Positions 10,935 to 60,151 of a stretch of DNA of 64,000 bases are shown in pieces. Both the position numbers and the translations under genes were made by a program. How positions within the stretch are numbered: position 1 is the stretch's first letter; the number at the start of each line of letters is the position of its first letter. Under the pieces are notes generated by a model, which had not been told where the DNA came from, ran no database searches, and was given only the letters and a program-made list of their open reading frames with translations. Source of the DNA: Chitinivorax tropicus (GTDB taxonomy: Bacteria > Pseudomonadota > Gammaproteobacteria > Burkholderiales > SCOH01); NCBI RefSeq assembly GCF_014202905.1, contig NZ_JACHHY010000020.1, positions 1 through 64,000 on the forward strand, in the 5' to 3' direction.

Positions 10935-11078
10935 TCAGCGGCGGACGGCGGCTTCTTCCTCTTTGACGTGTTTGCGCACAAACCAGCCGATATATCCTCC
11001 CATGCCAATGACGACGGCAATCACGATAGCACTCATGATTCCAAATTCTGATGAGAAGAGTTCTTTCCACAGCTCCAT
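10935..11078 (-). CDS. DUF3149-type small membrane protein (47 residues)
   Basis: This small gene is easy to miss. It starts at ATG (minus strand, 11076-11078) behind a perfect AAGGAG site six bases upstream and ends in TGA at 10935. The product begins MELWKELFSSEFGIMSA, has one membrane helix around residues 14-33 with a Gly-rich IGMGGYIGWF segment, then a charged tail KHVKEEEAAVRR. This layout matches the DUF3149 family of short single-span proteins of unknown function found in betaproteobacteria. It converges on the GGDEF gene. An FNR-type promoter lies upstream, which suggests induction at low oxygen. Confidence 0.85.
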   Translation of the reverse strand: MELWKELFSSEFGIMSAIVIAVVIGMGGYIGWFVRKHVKEEEAAVRR

Positions 11079-11096
11079 GATAGGCTCCTTACTGAA

Positions 11097-11121
11097 ATAA
11101 CCATTTCTTATCAATGGTTAT
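11097..11121. promoter_or_regulatory. Inverted repeat over the -10/start region of the DUF3149 promoter
   Basis: ATAACCATT (11097-11105) is perfectly inverted as AATGGTTAT (11113-11121) with a seven-base centre. It overlaps the minus-strand -10 (TATAAC) and the predicted start point of the DUF3149 promoter. It could be an operator for a second regulator or a hairpin at the 5' end of the transcript. Confidence 0.4.
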
Positions 11122-11158
11122 ACGCCTGCAGTCATGGATCTGGATTGACGCAAATCAA
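11117..11158 (-). promoter_or_regulatory. FNR/Anr-type class II promoter of the DUF3149 gene
   Basis: On the minus strand TTGATTTGCGTCAA (plus 11145-11158) matches the FNR consensus TTGAT-N4-ATCAA at nine of ten defined bases. A TATAAC hexamer (plus 11117-11122) begins 22 bases after the box, which places the box centre at -41.5 if the hexamer occupies -12 to -7. That is the standard class II activator geometry. The start codon lies about 32 bases after the predicted start point. Confidence 0.65.
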
Positions 11159-11165
11159 CCCTTGA

Positions 11166-11462
11166 TTATTTCCACTCGCCGAGCTGCCACCAGATGGATC
11201 GGGTCACGCTGACCCCTGTCGGGAAATGTTCCAGAAAATCGGCACGGAAGTCGGGTGCGAAATCGTCCAGATAACGATTCAACTCGACCTTGGCGCGTGC
11301 TTGAAAGCGGGTGCGGAAGCGGCCCGCTTCCTCTTCCTCAAAGGTGATGCCGATGAAACAACCGGTATCGAATATGTCAGGGATATGGCGGTGGCGCATG
11401 TAATCGGCAACGGCTTCCCGCCATTCTTCTTCTACAACCAAGGTGACTTCGTAAGTCAACAT
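11166..11462 (-). CDS. DUF4286 family protein
   Basis: The 98-residue form starting at MLTYEVTLVVEEEW (ATG 11462, with an AGGAG about eleven bases upstream) fits DUF4286 proteins, which open with M-x-YEVTL and carry HIPDIFDTGCF near residue 27 and a FPTGVSVTRSIW end. The open frame extends 28 residues upstream, but family members start here. It is a small soluble ferredoxin-fold-like protein of unknown role. It is divergent from rlmM. Confidence 0.82.
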   Translation of the reverse strand: MLTYEVTLVVEEEWREAVADYMRHRHIPDIFDTGCFIGITFEEEEAGRFRTRFQARAKVELNRYLDDFAPDFRADFLEHFPTGVSVTRSIWWQLGEWK

Positions 11463-11616
11463 GAGGGCGATTTTCTCCTGAATGATGGCATGGTGCGCTG
11501 GGTGGGCAAGCGCGACCACAGCCGGGTCCTGTTGATGCGGTTTCATTGCGCACCATTATTGACGTGCGATGCCTATTCTGTTGCTGGATGAAAGCAGTAC
11601 CTGCGATGAAACCATG

Positions 11617-23853: not shown

Positions 23854-25395
23854 TCAATGCTCACGCCGCATGAATTGCCGTGGTCGGACACCCATCGCCA
23901 GTAGCATCGCAAAGTAACTGGCTGCACCAAGCAGAACGGTGGCTGTCAGATAGCCTGCTCTCGTCAATGCAGGTGCGCTAGTCCAGCCCCCGAACTGTTG
24001 GGCTGCGAAATGGCAAAGTACGGACATCACCACCGACGCCACCACCACCTGTAGCAGAAATTTTATCCACCCTGCCTGGGGCTGATAGAAACCCTGCTGA
24101 CGGGACCGGATATAAAGCATGCCAGCATTGAAGCAGGATGCGATGCCGATTGATAGCGCCAGCCCGGCATGCTGCAGTGGGAGGATAAACATGAAGACGA
24201 CATTCATGAGCTGGGTCAAGCCTAGTGTGATCATCCCGATCCGGACCGGTGTCTTGGTATCGCCGCGTGCATAAAAGCCAGGGGCGAGGATCTTGATACT
24301 GATCAAACCCAATAGGCCGACTGCATAGGCCACCAGCGCGCGTTGTGTCATCAGCATGTCGTGCGTGGTGAATTTCCCGTGTACGAACAAAGTGCCGATC
24401 AGGGGTTCGCTCAACACCGCCAAGGCACAGGTGGCCGGCACCGAGAGCAGCAGACACAGGCGCAGCCCCCAATCCAGCAGCCTACTGTACTCAACTGCAT
24501 TGTTGGCAGCATGATGCTTCGACAAGCTAGGCAGCAGGATTGTTCCTAGCGCCACGCCCAGGACACCGGTTGGAAACTCCATCAGCCGATCAGCGTAATT
24601 CATCCACGAAATACTGCCATCCGGCAACAACGAAGCCAGCATGGTGTTGATGATCAAGCTGACCTGTGCAACCGACACTCCCAGCACGGCAGGCCCCATC
24701 TTCTTCAGGATGCGCATGACGGCCTCGTCTTTTAAACCGAGCCGTGGCCACGTCAGCATGCCGATCTTACGCAGATAGGGCAGCTGAAAGAACAATTGGG
24801 CAACGCCCCCGGCAAAGACACCCCAGGCCAAAGCCATCGCGGGCGGATCGAAATAGGGCGCCAACCACAGCGAGAACAGGATCAACGAAATATTCAACAG
24901 GGTAGGCGTGAAAGCCGGGATCGAGAACTTGTTATAAGTATTGAGAACACTACCCGCCAATGAAGACAGCGAGATCAGTAAGATGTATGGAAAGGTGACC
25001 CGCAGCATGTCGCAGGCCAGCGAGAATTTATCGGCATTCTTCGCAAAGCCCGGCGCGGTCAGGTAGATCACGGTGGGCGCGGCGAGTATGCCCAGCGCCG
25101 TCACCACGAACAGGGCCAGGGCCAGCGTGCCGGTGACCTTGGCGACCAGCTGCTGGGTTTCTGCTTCTGTCTTCTGAGTCTTGTACTCGGCCAGCACCGG
25201 TACGAATGCCTGCGAGAAGGCCCCTTCGGCAAAAATCCGCCGTAACAGATTAGGTAGTTTGAATGCAGTAAAGAAAGCATCGGTAGCCGCGCTGGCACCA
25301 AATGCGTGCGAAATGATCGCCTCGCGCAGAAAGCCTAGAATACGGGAAACCAGTGTCATGCCACTGACTGTGGTCAGTGCCTTCAATAGATTCAT
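23854..25395 (-). CDS. murJ: Lipid II flippase MurJ
   Basis: The 513-residue protein has about fourteen membrane helices and begins [20 protein letters not shown] with GFLREAII following, the MurJ/MviN signature. Other family segments include [20 protein letters not shown] near residue 45 and [20 protein letters not shown] near 275. It flips lipid II to the periplasmic side for peptidoglycan synthesis. It is divergent from rpsT, a common pairing in betaproteobacteria. Confidence 0.96.
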
Positions 25396-54824: not shown

Positions 54825-55240
54825 CCCAATTTTCAAATTCAATGCCGAAATATCAGCATGGTGCCATGCTGCTGGAGGGGTTGATTGCCATTTTGATTTT
54901 CTCATTTGGCTTGCTGGCAATTGTTGGATTGCAAGGGCAGGCAGTGCGAGATGTTTCAGATGCTCGTGGCCGTATTGATGCTACTTATGTAATGAATCGG
55001 ATTGTTGGTGAGCTTTGGTTGAAAGATCCTAAGAATCTGAAAGATCAAAATACAGATTACGATGATGCATCAACTGATATTGGTAAATTAGCCATTTCAC
55101 TTCCAAATGGCAAAGCAAATGTTAAGGTTAGCAATAAGATTGTCACAGTGACATTAACTTGGAAGCCTCCGGCGGCAAAAGATCCTAACAAGCTTGTAAC
55201 GGTAACAGCTGTCAACGAAGCATTGAAATCGGGGGCGTGA
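54818..55240 (+). CDS. pilV: Type IV pilus minor pilin PilV
   Basis: The 140-residue prepilin has a 15-residue leader ending QHG before AMLLEGLIAILIFSFGLLAI, with Glu at mature +5, then VGLQGQAVRDVSDARGRIDA, typical of PilV. PilV is a core minor pilin. It starts within the fimT stop. Base composition falls in A+T-rich direction from here on. Confidence 0.88.
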   Translation: MLTQFSNSMPKYQHGAMLLEGLIAILIFSFGLLAIVGLQGQAVRDVSDARGRIDATYVMNRIVGELWLKDPKNLKDQNTDYDDASTDIGKLAISLPNGKANVKVSNKIVTVTLTWKPPAAKDPNKLVTVTAVNEALKSGA

Positions 55241-56355
55241 TGAGTAATCTAATCCAATCTACTATCCCATCAAAACAGCATGGTTTTGGGTTAATGGAGG
55301 TACTAATTGCATTAATTTTAGGACTCTTGACTACCCTTGTGATTAGCCAAGTTACTGGAGCTTTTGAGGGCCAGAAGCGGTCCACCATGTCTGGCGGGGA
55401 TGCGCAAACAACAGGCGCTACAGCATTGTATTTCATTGAACGAGACATGCGGAATGCAGGTTATGGTTTTGCCATTCCTGCCGTAATGGGTTGCGATATC
55501 AAGGGTAATTACAATGGAACCGCATTCAACTGGAAGTTGGCGCCTGTTCAAATAACAGATGGATCGGCAACTGGGTCAAGTAGCCTTGATGAGCTGACCA
55601 TATTTGGGAGTAGCCGGGCCGAGTTTAGTTTACCCATGACGGCTAAGGGTGAAGTAGTGCCAAATGGGCTCGTGAAAGTTGATTCAGCCTTTGGTGTTAC
55701 AAATAATGATCTTTTGGTCGTATGGGGTGCGGCAAGACCAAATTGTACTTTGATTCAGGCGACTAAGGTTTGCGATTCCAATGCGATTGCAAAAGATGCA
55801 GCATGCAAAACTCTTCCGGCCAATCCATCTGGAAAGCCTGATTTCCATATTTTTCAAGATACGGCCAGTAAGTGGAATGCATCTGTGAGCCAAGCCTTTC
55901 CGGCAGGAAATTTCCTAAGGGGCGCGGTGCTTTTTAATCTTGGGAGTATTCAGCGTATTACCTATAAGGTAAATAATTCCTCCTTGCTTAGAAGTGAATA
56001 TGATTCATCGACGAATACGAATGTAGACCGGGTCATCATGGATCATGTTGTGAACCTGCAAGCACGATATGGGTTTGATACCAACGGGGATGGTGTCATC
56101 GATAATTGGAGTGTGAGTACTCCAAGTTCTGCGGCGATATGGCAGACACTCGGTGCCATCCGAATTGTGGTTGTGGCGCGTAGTAATCAATACGAGCAGA
56201 AGGTCGTTACAGGCATGGCCCCTTTGTCTCCCTGGCCAACATGGTCAGATGGAGCTGCAATCGATGTGAATTTTGATGCTGATGCTGAGCATTATAGGTA
56301 TCGGACATTTGAAACGGTAATTCCCTTGCGGAATCGGATATGGGGGCTCCCATGA
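55240..56355 (+). CDS. pilW: Type IV pilus minor pilin PilW
   Basis: The 371-residue prepilin has a leader ending SKQHG before FGLMEVLIALILGLLTTLVI with Glu at mature +5, and a GGDAQTTGATALYFIERDMR helix extension. This matches PilW (GspJ-like), here larger than usual GspJ proteins. The ATG shares a base with the pilV stop; a GTG three bases earlier is possible. It overlaps pilX by four bases. Confidence 0.88.
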   Translation: MSNLIQSTIPSKQHGFGLMEVLIALILGLLTTLVISQVTGAFEGQKRSTMSGGDAQTTGATALYFIERDMRNAGYGFAIPAVMGCDIKGNYNGTAFNWKLAPVQITDGSATGSSSLDELTIFGSSRAEFSLPMTAKGEVVPNGLVKVDSAFGVTNNDLLVVWGAARPNCTLIQATKVCDSNAIAKDAACKTLPANPSGKPDFHIFQDTASKWNASVSQAFPAGNFLRGAVLFNLGSIQRITYKVNNSSLLRSEYDSSTNTNVDRVIMDHVVNLQARYGFDTNGDGVIDNWSVSTPSSAAIWQTLGAIRIVVVARSNQYEQKVVTGMAPLSPWPTWSDGAAIDVNFDADAEHYRYRTFETVIPLRNRIWGLP

Positions 56356-57023
56356 ATCGCAATTTTCGTTTTAGTAAGCATAAACAGCGTGGTGTAGTGC
56401 TTTTTTTTGCCCTAATCGCCTTGATTGCAATTACGCTAGCAGCGCTGAGTTTAATGCGCAGTCGAGATAACGCTGTGGTTATTGCAGGTAATCTTGCCTT
56501 TCGACAGGCAGCTGTGGCCGGCGCGGATTTGGCATTGGAAAAGGCGCGAGACTGGATTATGGCTAATGCCGTTGATGATATTGGTACGGGGTTGAATACC
56601 AGTAAGCCTGATAGTGGTTATTATTCTAGTGCTGTCATTGACTTGGGGGGGGGGCAGCTGACCAAGCTTTTGGATGTGACGGCAAGTATTACGCCTAGCC
56701 AGTCTGCTGATAATGTCAATTGGGATGGTAAAGGGACAGGTTTGAAAGCCTTTGCTGTTCCCCAGGATGCATATGCACAAGCTGTCAGTCAAAACTATGC
56801 ATATATTATTCGGCGCTTGTGCAATAAGGAAAATTTACCTGTACAAGGTCTCGGTCAGGAGTGTGCTGTTTATTCCACAAAGGGTTCCTCTGATTCTAAA
56901 ACAGATCAGAGTCAGGGTAATATGAATTTATCTGGTAGTATTTCTGGATACTATCAGGTCACTGTTCGGGTAACAGGTCCAAAAAATACAGTTAGCTATG
57001 TGCAAACCGTCATAATGCTTTGA
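56352..57023 (+). CDS. pilX: Type IV pilus minor pilin PilX
   Basis: The 223-residue prepilin has a leader ending KQRG before VVLFFALIALIAITLAALSL. The mature +5 position is Phe rather than Glu, as expected for PilX/GspK-like tip subunits. An AGNLAFRQAAVAGADLALEKA helix follows. The ATG overlaps the pilW stop (ATGA) behind a GGGGGC site. It precedes pilY1 by 56 bases. Confidence 0.88.
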   Translation: MNRNFRFSKHKQRGVVLFFALIALIAITLAALSLMRSRDNAVVIAGNLAFRQAAVAGADLALEKARDWIMANAVDDIGTGLNTSKPDSGYYSSAVIDLGGGQLTKLLDVTASITPSQSADNVNWDGKGTGLKAFAVPQDAYAQAVSQNYAYIIRRLCNKENLPVQGLGQECAVYSTKGSSDSKTDQSQGNMNLSGSISGYYQVTVRVTGPKNTVSYVQTVIML

Positions 57024-57079
57024 TTTCGGAATAAATACCGCCTGTCGAACTGGGTGAAATAGGTTAAGGAGTCGTTATT

Positions 57080-60000
57080 GTGAAGCTAAGTGAAAATTTC
57101 AAAATAGCTTATTTGTCATTGGCGGTATCTATGATTGGTGGAAGTGCTGTTGCAGCTGTTGTACTTCCAGATAAGCCTATCTTCGATCCGCAGCAACCGA
57201 AGCCAAATATATTTTTCATTTTGGATGATTCGGGAAGTATGGCGTCCGATTTTATGCCGGATGATATAGGAGGGCTTACTAATTTCGTCAAATCTAATGT
57301 GCAATGTAATTCCATTGCATTTGACCCAAATTTTAAATATGTTGATTTTATTCCTGTTAAAGTTGATGGTACAAAATATGCAATTCCAAATTTTAATGCA
57401 GCGCCTATAGATGGATATAATCCTTTAAGCTCAACAATGAATCTGGCTGGTCAGATGTATGCGGTCAGAAAAGATGGAAATACCACGGCGACTAATTGTT
57501 TGCGCGCTGATTCGTATGATGGTGTGGTGATTGATAATTCCTCTAGTCAGGATGTGAAAAATAACTATGCTGTTTGGTTTTCCTTTTATAGGACTCGGAT
57601 GTCCATGATGAAATCCAGCGTTGGTTTGGCATTCGATAAATTGGATGAAAATCAACGGGTTGGATTTAGTACGATTCGGTATTTGGCTAGCTCTGGTGCT
57701 GATTTAAACGAAAGAAATACTGGATTCCTCGGCCTGAGAGAGTTTGGTGAAAAATCTGTGGGTTATGGCAGCGCACCTGGCGACTTCCGAAAGGAATGGT
57801 TTAAGCGATTATACCAGAGTGTGCCAGGGGGAGGGACGCCACTCAGAGTTTCCTTGGAAAAAATCGGTAAAATGTATGCTGGGCAAATTATTCCTAGCTC
57901 AGGTGATCCTTTGCCTCAAAAGCAATGGTGTAGGCGTAATTATACTATTCTGTCAACAGATGGTCTTTGGAATAGTGATAATGTCAGCTATGACACAGAT
58001 AGTAACGCACCAAGACCATTGAAGGATGATAATAGACAGGCAAATACTTTGGCAGATGTTGCCTATTATTACTACATAAATGATTTACGCCCGGGCACTG
58101 CTTATCCAAATTCATTGAGTGAAAGTCAGAGCGACCCTGCTAAGCATCAGCATATGGTAACTTTTACAATTGGCTTAGGGGTAAATGGCTTATTAAAATT
58201 TGTTCCAGACTATAAAACCAATACAAATGCTGCTGTCAGTGATTATGTTGGCCTTCAAAATGGTACCAAATCTTGGCCGAAGGTTATCGAAAATGGCATT
58301 TCTACGGTTGATGATCTTTGGCATGCTGCGGTGAATGGCTATGGGCAATATTTTAGTGCGAAAAAGCCAAGCGATATTGTAGATGGACTAAGTCAAGCTT
58401 TACGGAATATCAACAATCCAAGTCGGGCTGGTTCCGGCATAAGCTTTCCTTCTCCTGATCTAACTTCTGGCAGGACGGATGTATATGTTGGTGGCTATGT
58501 TCCAGGCTGGTGGTCAGGAGAGGTTTCAAGGCTTGAGGTTGATCCGGCAACGGGAATAGTGGGCACGGTGCCAACTTGGAAGGCTTCGGAGAAGTTCGGT
58601 TTGTATACAGATCGTAAAATTTATACCTATGATCCGACTAAGAGCTTGGATAAAAAACGATTGTTTCAGTGGAGTAACCTAACTCCAGCAGAGCAGGATT
58701 TTTTCAAGGTAAGCAGCCTTTCCCAGTGTCAAGGTGCAACAGCTTACCCTGCATGTAAAGACCCTCAGAACAATGGAGAAGATTTAGTTGACTTTCTGCG
58801 GGGCGATAAGAAGCTGCAGAACAGCGGAGATACTGCCACTCTTTTTAGGGAGCGGCAGCATATGCTGGGTGATATCGTAGGTTCTCGCCCTATTTATTTA
58901 AAAGAGTCATTGTTTGCTTATACGGGGGGGGCGTTTGCAAATCGAGAGCCTAGGGTAATTGTAGGTGCAAATGATGGTATGCTCCATGCTTTTGACGCTT
59001 CTGATGATAAGACTAAATGGGGTAAGGAGATTTGGGCTTATGTACCAGGGCTTGTCCTGAAAGATATGTACAAGTTGGCTGATGTAAATTATCAACATCA
59101 ATTTTATGCGGATGGTGAGCCAACAATTGTTGATTTTTTTGATTCTAGCTGGAAGACCCTTCTGGTGTCTGGTTTGAACAAGGGTGGGAAAGGCTACTAT
59201 GCTATTGATATCTCTGATGCAAACGATCCTAAACCGTTGTGGGAATATACCGATTCAGAGATGGGATACACATACGGTCGCCCCATTGTGACAAAATTGA
59301 GTAATGATCAATGGGTTGTGATCTTTACATCTGGCTATAATGCAACAGCAGATAAGCTTGTTGTCTTGGATGCAAAGAGTGGAAGTGTGGTAAAAACCAT
59401 TAAAACCGGGTCGGCTGCAGGGTTGGCTAAGATTTCAGCTTGGATTGATGATTTTGATGCTGATAATAAGGCTAAGTTTGTCTACGGCGGTGATCTGAAT
59501 GGCGTGATGTGGCGTTTTGATTTGGATTCTGGTGCGGCAAGTAAATTAATTGATCTTGGTCCTGGTCAGCCTATTACTGCTAAGCCAGAGCTTGCGGAGG
59601 TAAATGGAAAGCGTGTTGTTTATTTTGGAAGCGGACAAATACTAACGACAAATGATTTGTTGGTTACTGCCAATAAATATGGCTTGTATGGCGTTGCGGA
59701 TAAGGATGCTACTGCTTCAATAAGTGATTTGGAATCAATGGTTGTTGATGCCAGCACAGGAAAAGTAACCGGCAATCCTTTGGATTGGGTGGTGAAGAGT
59801 GGCTTTGTTGCACGATTGCCAAATGGTGGTGAGCGTTCCAATATTGATCCAAAAATTGCTGCTGGGAAGGTGGTTTATTGGACCAATACGCCTACCGACT
59901 TTGAGGCGGAATCTTGTAGTGGAAATGGTGTGACTCGTCTATATGTCTTGGATTTCAAGAAGGGTACGGGAAGCACCACAACTGTTGCTGAGGAGCTTTC

Positions 60001-60151
60001 GGTTGGTGGTACGATTGTTATGACATCAACAGGGAAATTGAAAGATATATCAAGAAGACCCTCTGGATCAACTGATACGGTTGACGGTGGTGAGCCTATG
60101 AGCGGTGGTAAAGGTCGTCGCGTAACTTGGCGCGAGGTTGTTTCTCAGTAG
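57080..60151 (+). CDS. pilY1: Type IV pilus tip adhesin PilY1
   Basis: The 1023-residue secreted protein begins at GTG 57080 with AAGGAG eight bases upstream and a signal peptide (about 1-25). The N-terminal half has a von Willebrand A-like fold with the MIDAS motif DDSGSM near 49 and TDGLW near 293. The C-terminal half is a PilY1 beta-propeller (IVGANDGMLHAFDAS, YADGEPTIVDFF) with a calcium-type loop DDFDADNKAKFVYGGD near 790 followed by LNGVMWRFDLDSG. PilY1 caps the pilus, controls extension/retraction and mediates adhesion. The gene is A+T-rich relative to flanking genes. Confidence 0.93.
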   Translation: MKLSENFKIAYLSLAVSMIGGSAVAAVVLPDKPIFDPQQPKPNIFFILDDSGSMASDFMPDDIGGLTNFVKSNVQCNSIAFDPNFKYVDFIPVKVDGTKYAIPNFNAAPIDGYNPLSSTMNLAGQMYAVRKDGNTTATNCLRADSYDGVVIDNSSSQDVKNNYAVWFSFYRTRMSMMKSSVGLAFDKLDENQRVGFSTIRYLASSGADLNERNTGFLGLREFGEKSVGYGSAPGDFRKEWFKRLYQSVPGGGTPLRVSLEKIGKMYAGQIIPSSGDPLPQKQWCRRNYTILSTDGLWNSDNVSYDTDSNAPRPLKDDNRQANTLADVAYYYYINDLRPGTAYPNSLSESQSDPAKHQHMVTFTIGLGVNGLLKFVPDYKTNTNAAVSDYVGLQNGTKSWPKVIENGISTVDDLWHAAVNGYGQYFSAKKPSDIVDGLSQALRNINNPSRAGSGISFPSPDLTSGRTDVYVGGYVPGWWSGEVSRLEVDPATGIVGTVPTWKASEKFGLYTDRKIYTYDPTKSLDKKRLFQWSNLTPAEQDFFKVSSLSQCQGATAYPACKDPQNNGEDLVDFLRGDKKLQNSGDTATLFRERQHMLGDIVGSRPIYLKESLFAYTGGAFANREPRVIVGANDGMLHAFDASDDKTKWGKEIWAYVPGLVLKDMYKLADVNYQHQFYADGEPTIVDFFDSSWKTLLVSGLNKGGKGYYAIDISDANDPKPLWEYTDSEMGYTYGRPIVTKLSNDQWVVIFTSGYNATADKLVVLDAKSGSVVKTIKTGSAAGLAKISAWIDDFDADNKAKFVYGGDLNGVMWRFDLDSGAASKLIDLGPGQPITAKPELAEVNGKRVVYFGSGQILTTNDLLVTANKYGLYGVADKDATASISDLESMVVDASTGKVTGNPLDWVVKSGFVARLPNGGERSNIDPKIAAGKVVYWTNTPTDFEAESCSGNGVTRLYVLDFKKGTGSTTTVAEELSVGGTIVMTSTGKLKDISRRPSGSTDTVDGGEPMSGGKGRRVTWREVVSQ

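Follow-up and report, generated by a model that had tools for sequence, protein, structure and literature searches.

Positions 10935-11158 of the window, i.e. the whole 64-kb stretch of DNA analyzed here, contain the promoter and gene of a small membrane protein of the DUF3149 family. Probably (roughly 75 percent), this protein is made at low oxygen and serves the cbb3 oxidase either as an accessory subunit of the CcoM kind or as a factor for its assembly or stability. The odds behind this and the other conclusions are judgements and were not computed. From the genome comparisons, it appears highly likely that DUF3149 belongs functionally with the cbb3 oxidase, while a role as subunit rather than as assembly factor is somewhat favored. 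Hence, a Pfam family of unknown function would become a testable companion of the high-affinity oxidase on which many bacteria rely at low oxygen. The searched open-licence literature yielded no paper on DUF3149 or PF11346, none on a novel cbb3 subunit in Betaproteobacteria, and none linking ccoNOQP and FNR with a small membrane protein as subunit.

The FNR-type promoter of the DUF3149 gene

The promoter and gene are composed of the following parts:

11166-11546, minus strand: upstream gene DUF4286 (PF14114), same direction as the DUF3149 gene
11158-11145, minus strand: FNR box TTGATTTGCGTCAA, 9 of 10 consensus bases, centre at -41.5 of the predicted start
11122-11117, minus strand: -10 hexamer TATAAC, exactly 22 nt past the FNR box
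11110, minus strand: predicted transcription start, from class II promoter geometry
11097-11121: perfect inverted repeat ATAACCATT-N7-AATGGTTAT, 9 bp, across the -10 and start region
11090-11085, minus strand: ribosome-binding site AAGGAG
11078-10935, minus strand: DUF3149 (PF11346) gene, 47 aa, ATG at 11078, stop ending at 10935

The box, the distance of 22 nt, TATAAC, AAGGAG and the 47-residue gene were all located where the preceding sequence-only reading had placed them, and its centering of the box at -41.5 holds with the predicted +1 at 11110. The DUF4286 gene is codirectional and ends 7 nt upstream of the box, hence the box is not shared with a divergent gene. The inverted repeat, which had been taken as a hint at a second layer of control, is real and perfect over 9 bp. 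The own genome contains one site at two or fewer mismatches and one further site at three, which does not support a genome-wide operator. Among the family members, a copy with a single mismatch occurs in G001 and one with two mismatches in G003, and G002 and G004 lack the repeat, which may represent either an operator or a chance occurrence. Elsewhere in the window, the region 55237-60151 is low in GC (43.5 percent at 56001-60000) and by eye resembles a cluster for minor pilins of a type IV pilus and PilY1.

Taken alone, the box is weak evidence, because the one perfect FNR site of the window (24293-24306) is situated inside another ORF of 513 aa, by eye murJ. This site probably arose by chance and serves as a warning, and in total seven sites with at most one mismatch were found in the window versus 2.6 expected. 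In this regard, the box before the DUF3149 gene might likewise be a chance match and the gene constitutive in its own organism, an explanation that the comparison with orthologues makes very improbable. The sample consisted of 300 genomes of the same order, 103 of them with DUF3149 and with 107 matches in total, for all of which DNA of up to 4 kb on each side was taken. Four matches without the DUF3149 motif by eye were left out (L130, L131 and L134 with 22.9-23.7 bits, marked as exceeding the cut-off, and L132, which stays under it), while L133 and L135 were retained although below the cut-off, resulting in 103 loci. A strict box, defined as TTGAY-N4-RTCAA at most 160 nt from the start, precedes the gene at a distance of 63-131 nt in 38 of the 77 loci that were not first found beside ccoH, whereas the remainder of this DNA would predict 0.2. 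It was found before 9 of 1267 other mechanically called ORFs of the same loci, wrong-strand ORFs included. The best -10-like hexamer lies 21-22 nt past 29 of 39 boxes (500 shuffles: mean 2.9, maximum 7). The loci with box are distributed over 11 GTDB families and their neighbouring genes differ.

Within the own family, all five members found retained the box and TATAAC amid flanks that have changed in large part. TATAAC and 9 of the 10 half-site positions are invariant, and the spacing amounts to 22 nt in four members and to 20 nt in G003. Outside the order, the box was found in 6 of 10 loci, these being the best 12 of 35 matches minus two that came from the order itself. A lack of conserved box and spacing before orthologues would have refuted the sequence-only reading; this was examined and did not refute it, the box being found both within the order and beyond it. 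Box, spacing and conservation together are far beyond chance. The promoter also carries the attributes of class II FNR promoters, i.e. a box near TTGAT-N4-ATCAA (9/10), 22 nt to the -10 hexamer and an FNR in the genome, and on the level of DNA sequence it is almost certainly real.

The FNR of the own genome (G000:C4) scored 260.5 bits against a cut-off of 228, and the translation contains CX2CX5C plus a further Cys, i.e. four cysteines. The cco cluster of this genome is arranged as ccoI, ccoS, box TTGACCCAAATCAA, 22 nt, TAGCAT and ccoN-O-Q-P-G-H, in which ccoN and ccoH were assigned by family matches and the other genes by position and resemblance, ccoQ by eye. With its box at 22-nt spacing, the ccoN promoter of the oxidase is laid out like that of DUF3149. 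A 90-aa membrane protein is encoded directly behind ccoH in this cluster (L028 2438-2710, minus strand), and a protein resembling it by eye is found downstream of DUF3149 in L032, L045 and L046.

The action of FNR and the mechanism of class II promoters are well established. When oxygen falls, FNR would regain its 4Fe-4S cluster and dimerise, and the dimer would be expected to bind the box at -41.5 and to recruit RNA polymerase at the class II promoter. Production of the DUF3149 protein would thereby coincide with expression of the ccoNOQPGH operon, which has a promoter of this layout as well. FNR binding, induction at low oxygen and a physical place in the oxidase are predicted here from sequence. 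The cco operon of Ca. Accumulibacter, also a betaproteobacterium, has been assigned to FNR on the basis of transcript patterns and of a predicted FNR motif (PMC6446978). A proteomic report on P. stutzeri describes CcoN, CcoP and CcoQ as more abundant in aerobic than in oxygen-limited, denitrifying growth (PMC10433244). Hence, cbb3 cannot be regarded in every organism as simply a protein of low oxygen, and an FNR-type promoter does not settle expression.

The DUF3149 protein and its linkage to cco genes

The own protein belongs to DUF3149 with 52.9 bits over residues 4-42, well above the curated cut-off of 23.2, and DUF3149 is the sole Pfam family that matched it up to E 0.1. The 4.4-Mb genome contains one match only. 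Residues 12-30 form the hydrophobic core of this single-helix protein. Across the 103 DUF3149 proteins, which have a median length of 46 aa, 58 K+R residues are found before the hydrophobic core and 392 after it, and this basic C-terminus suggests an N-out/C-in topology. DUF3149 thus displays the short single-helix build with basic C-terminus that also characterizes the CcoM family. Among solved structures no convincing relative was detected (best E 0.47), and in NCBIfam none of four searched DUF3149 proteins matched a family above its cut-off.

Evidence for a relation to the cbb3 oxidase comes from gene order. The DUF3149 gene is located directly behind ccoH in 28 of the 103 loci, 26 of which came from the FixH/CcoH search, a lower bound among the best matches listed, and two were added by our own profile. 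None of these 28 genes has a strict box of its own, which is what co-transcription with the operon would predict. In five further loci the gene adjoins a convergent ccoI-like gene, read from PF12156 and gene length, and two of these have the box. On the level of families the two arrangements are separated; among 28 families, 11 show the box, 8 the ccoH linkage and none both. A point against the link to the oxidase is that 34 of the 103 loci show no strict box and have no cco gene within about 4 kb, and several whole families (e.g. f2, f10, f26, f30, f33, f35 and f49) are without both.

The occurrence of DUF3149 also follows that of the oxidase. In raw counts uncorrected for phylogeny, ccoN was detected in 97 of the 100 genomes whose DUF3149 exceeds the cut-off, compared with 111 of the 200 remaining ones, counted at E <1e-100 with the line drawn by eye and including the genomes G125 (L131) and G254 (L134). 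The three exceptions are G036, which is 92 percent complete and whose sister G080 has ccoN, and the weak matches in G125 and G254. Likewise, FixH was found in 97 of 103 DUF3149 genomes versus 105 of 197 others, again as raw counts with phylogeny uncorrected. DUF3149 is missing from 111 of 208 ccoN genomes and is therefore not essential to the oxidase in general. The earlier suggestion that the protein may assist a micro-aerobic respiratory complex can be sharpened to cbb3, given its position behind ccoH in more than a quarter of the loci and its presence in step with ccoN.

A scan of named genomes with one peptide pattern, which represents a biased sample, confirmed 131 places, of which 80 were kept. 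Among these 80 loci, a cco gene is visible in 43, with ccoH immediately upstream in 41 of them; a further 17 carry the box and 20 show neither, and for L204 only 30 nt upstream are in view. Named examples are Azospira oryzae (L210) with linkage to ccoH, and Chitiniphilus and Iodobacter (L149, L150, L154) with an FNR box before the gene. In 13 of the 20 loci with neither, a sigma-54-like GG-N10-GC element is located 65-80 nt upstream, mostly with 9/12 matches:

L165, L167, L170, L178, L180, L184, L190, L209, L211, L215, L216, L220, L223: loci with the sigma-54-like element, Azonexus/Dechloromonas/Rhodocyclales group

A score of at least 9/12 was obtained for 15 of the 20 loci, two of them by other placements, and a score of 10 in only three. 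A score of 9 was reached in 1 of 43 cco-linked loci, 0 of 17 box loci and 4 of 39 box-less loci of the order sample. In L178 and L220, the element overlaps a near-FNR box. The sigma-54-like element is possibly a third kind of promoter for DUF3149.

Subunit, assembly factor or partner of another system

It may be that DUF3149 is involved only in assembly or maturation, similar to CcoS or CcoH in cofactor insertion or in the joining of sub-complexes, and is absent from the finished oxidase. Its neighbours would fit, because they are assembly genes, namely ccoG-ccoH in the 28 linked loci and the ccoI-like gene in five others. However, DUF3149 agrees with ccoM in its size, its single helix and its separate FNR-type promoter, and the ccoM product has been described as a structural subunit (PMC8267372). 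We regard the restriction to assembly as the less probable of the two roles though one to be taken seriously. The line between them is thin, because CcoH itself is described as remaining with the active complex (PMC8267372). It is unlikely that DUF3149 serves as FNR-regulated partner of another low-oxygen system, such as denitrification, a different oxidase or a stress response, with an incidental cco linkage. For a betaproteobacterium, numerous FNR-controlled systems have been predicted (PMC6446978), and the third of the loci having neither cco link nor box would agree with such a role, but 28 genes directly behind ccoH and the near-constant company of ccoN in DUF3149 genomes argue against it.

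Comparison with CcoM, CcoQ and other systems

CcoM, a protein of 36 residues, has been described as a subunit of the oxidase in P. stutzeri (PMC10433244), which was identified with the help of mass spectrometry on the purified complex (PMC9264385) and is reported to be needed for the stability of the oxidase but not for its activity (PMC8267372). Like DUF3149, CcoM (PDB 5djq chain N) is short, has one helix and a basic C-terminus, and its gene lies behind an FNR/Anr-type box. In the G460 family, taken to be Pseudomonadaceae because CcoM identity reaches up to 97 percent, 44 of 59 genomes yielded CcoM, and in none of the 59 was DUF3149 detected. Among the best 30 of the 44 matches, a strict FNR/Anr-type box lies 71-101 nt before ccoM in every locus (L229, L237-L265), no other strict box occurs in the 93 kb of these loci, and by eye a -10-like sequence follows about 20-23 nt past the box. 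CcoM differs from DUF3149 in that good matches to it were found only in the Pseudomonas-like family, while DUF3149 has its own LFxSDIGLLSLxT motif.

The comparison of profiles with hhalign gave for DUF3149 and CcoM a probability of 70 percent over 35 ungapped columns with 26 percent identity (0.7 for the reversed profile), a value that depends on the setting (70, 26 or 9 percent). Permutations scored as well in 5 of 200 cases within hydrophobic columns and in 0 of 200 over all columns. The likeness of the DUF3149 profile to CcoM is no better than that to CcoQ, for which 79 percent was obtained (19 for reversed CcoQ, 23 in another setting; permutations 5/200 and 0/200). Hence, these profile comparisons are suggestive only of a homology between DUF3149 and CcoM. 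CcoQ/FixQ is, like DUF3149, a small single-helix cbb3 subunit and has a similar S-x-x-T stretch, but in the Pfam search up to E 0.1 the own protein did not match the CcoQ family. A replacement of CcoQ by DUF3149 can be ruled out, because both genes are visible in 25 of the first 26 ccoH-linked loci and by eye ccoQ is present in the own cco cluster.

A further parallel is offered by the CydX-type subunits of cytochrome bd oxidase, in which a tiny hydrophobic helix stabilises a terminal oxidase. DUF3149 may work alike, even though CydX-type subunits belong to another oxidase class than cbb3 and are likened here by description. With respect to its regulation, the DUF3149 promoter shares the box at -41.5 and the 22 nt to the -10 hexamer with the class II FNR/ANR promoters of cco operons and differs from them by the 9-bp inverted repeat overlapping the -10 region. 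Its arrangement either in the cco operon or behind an own FNR promoter provides a clean natural case of co-regulation that is kept when a gene moves.

In a wider and more tentative view, to which we give somewhat less than even odds, the cbb3 oxidases of Beta- and Gammaproteobacteria other than the Pseudomonas family would widely contain DUF3149 as their small accessory subunit. In these bacteria DUF3149 would be the equivalent and possibly a distant homologue of CcoM, and evolution would keep it coupled to the oxidase in one of several exchangeable ways, i.e. the position behind ccoH, an own class II FNR promoter or the sigma-54-like promoter in the Azonexus/Dechloromonas group. If this wider equivalence to CcoM is true, cbb3 preparations from other bacteria may contain an unrecognised subunit.
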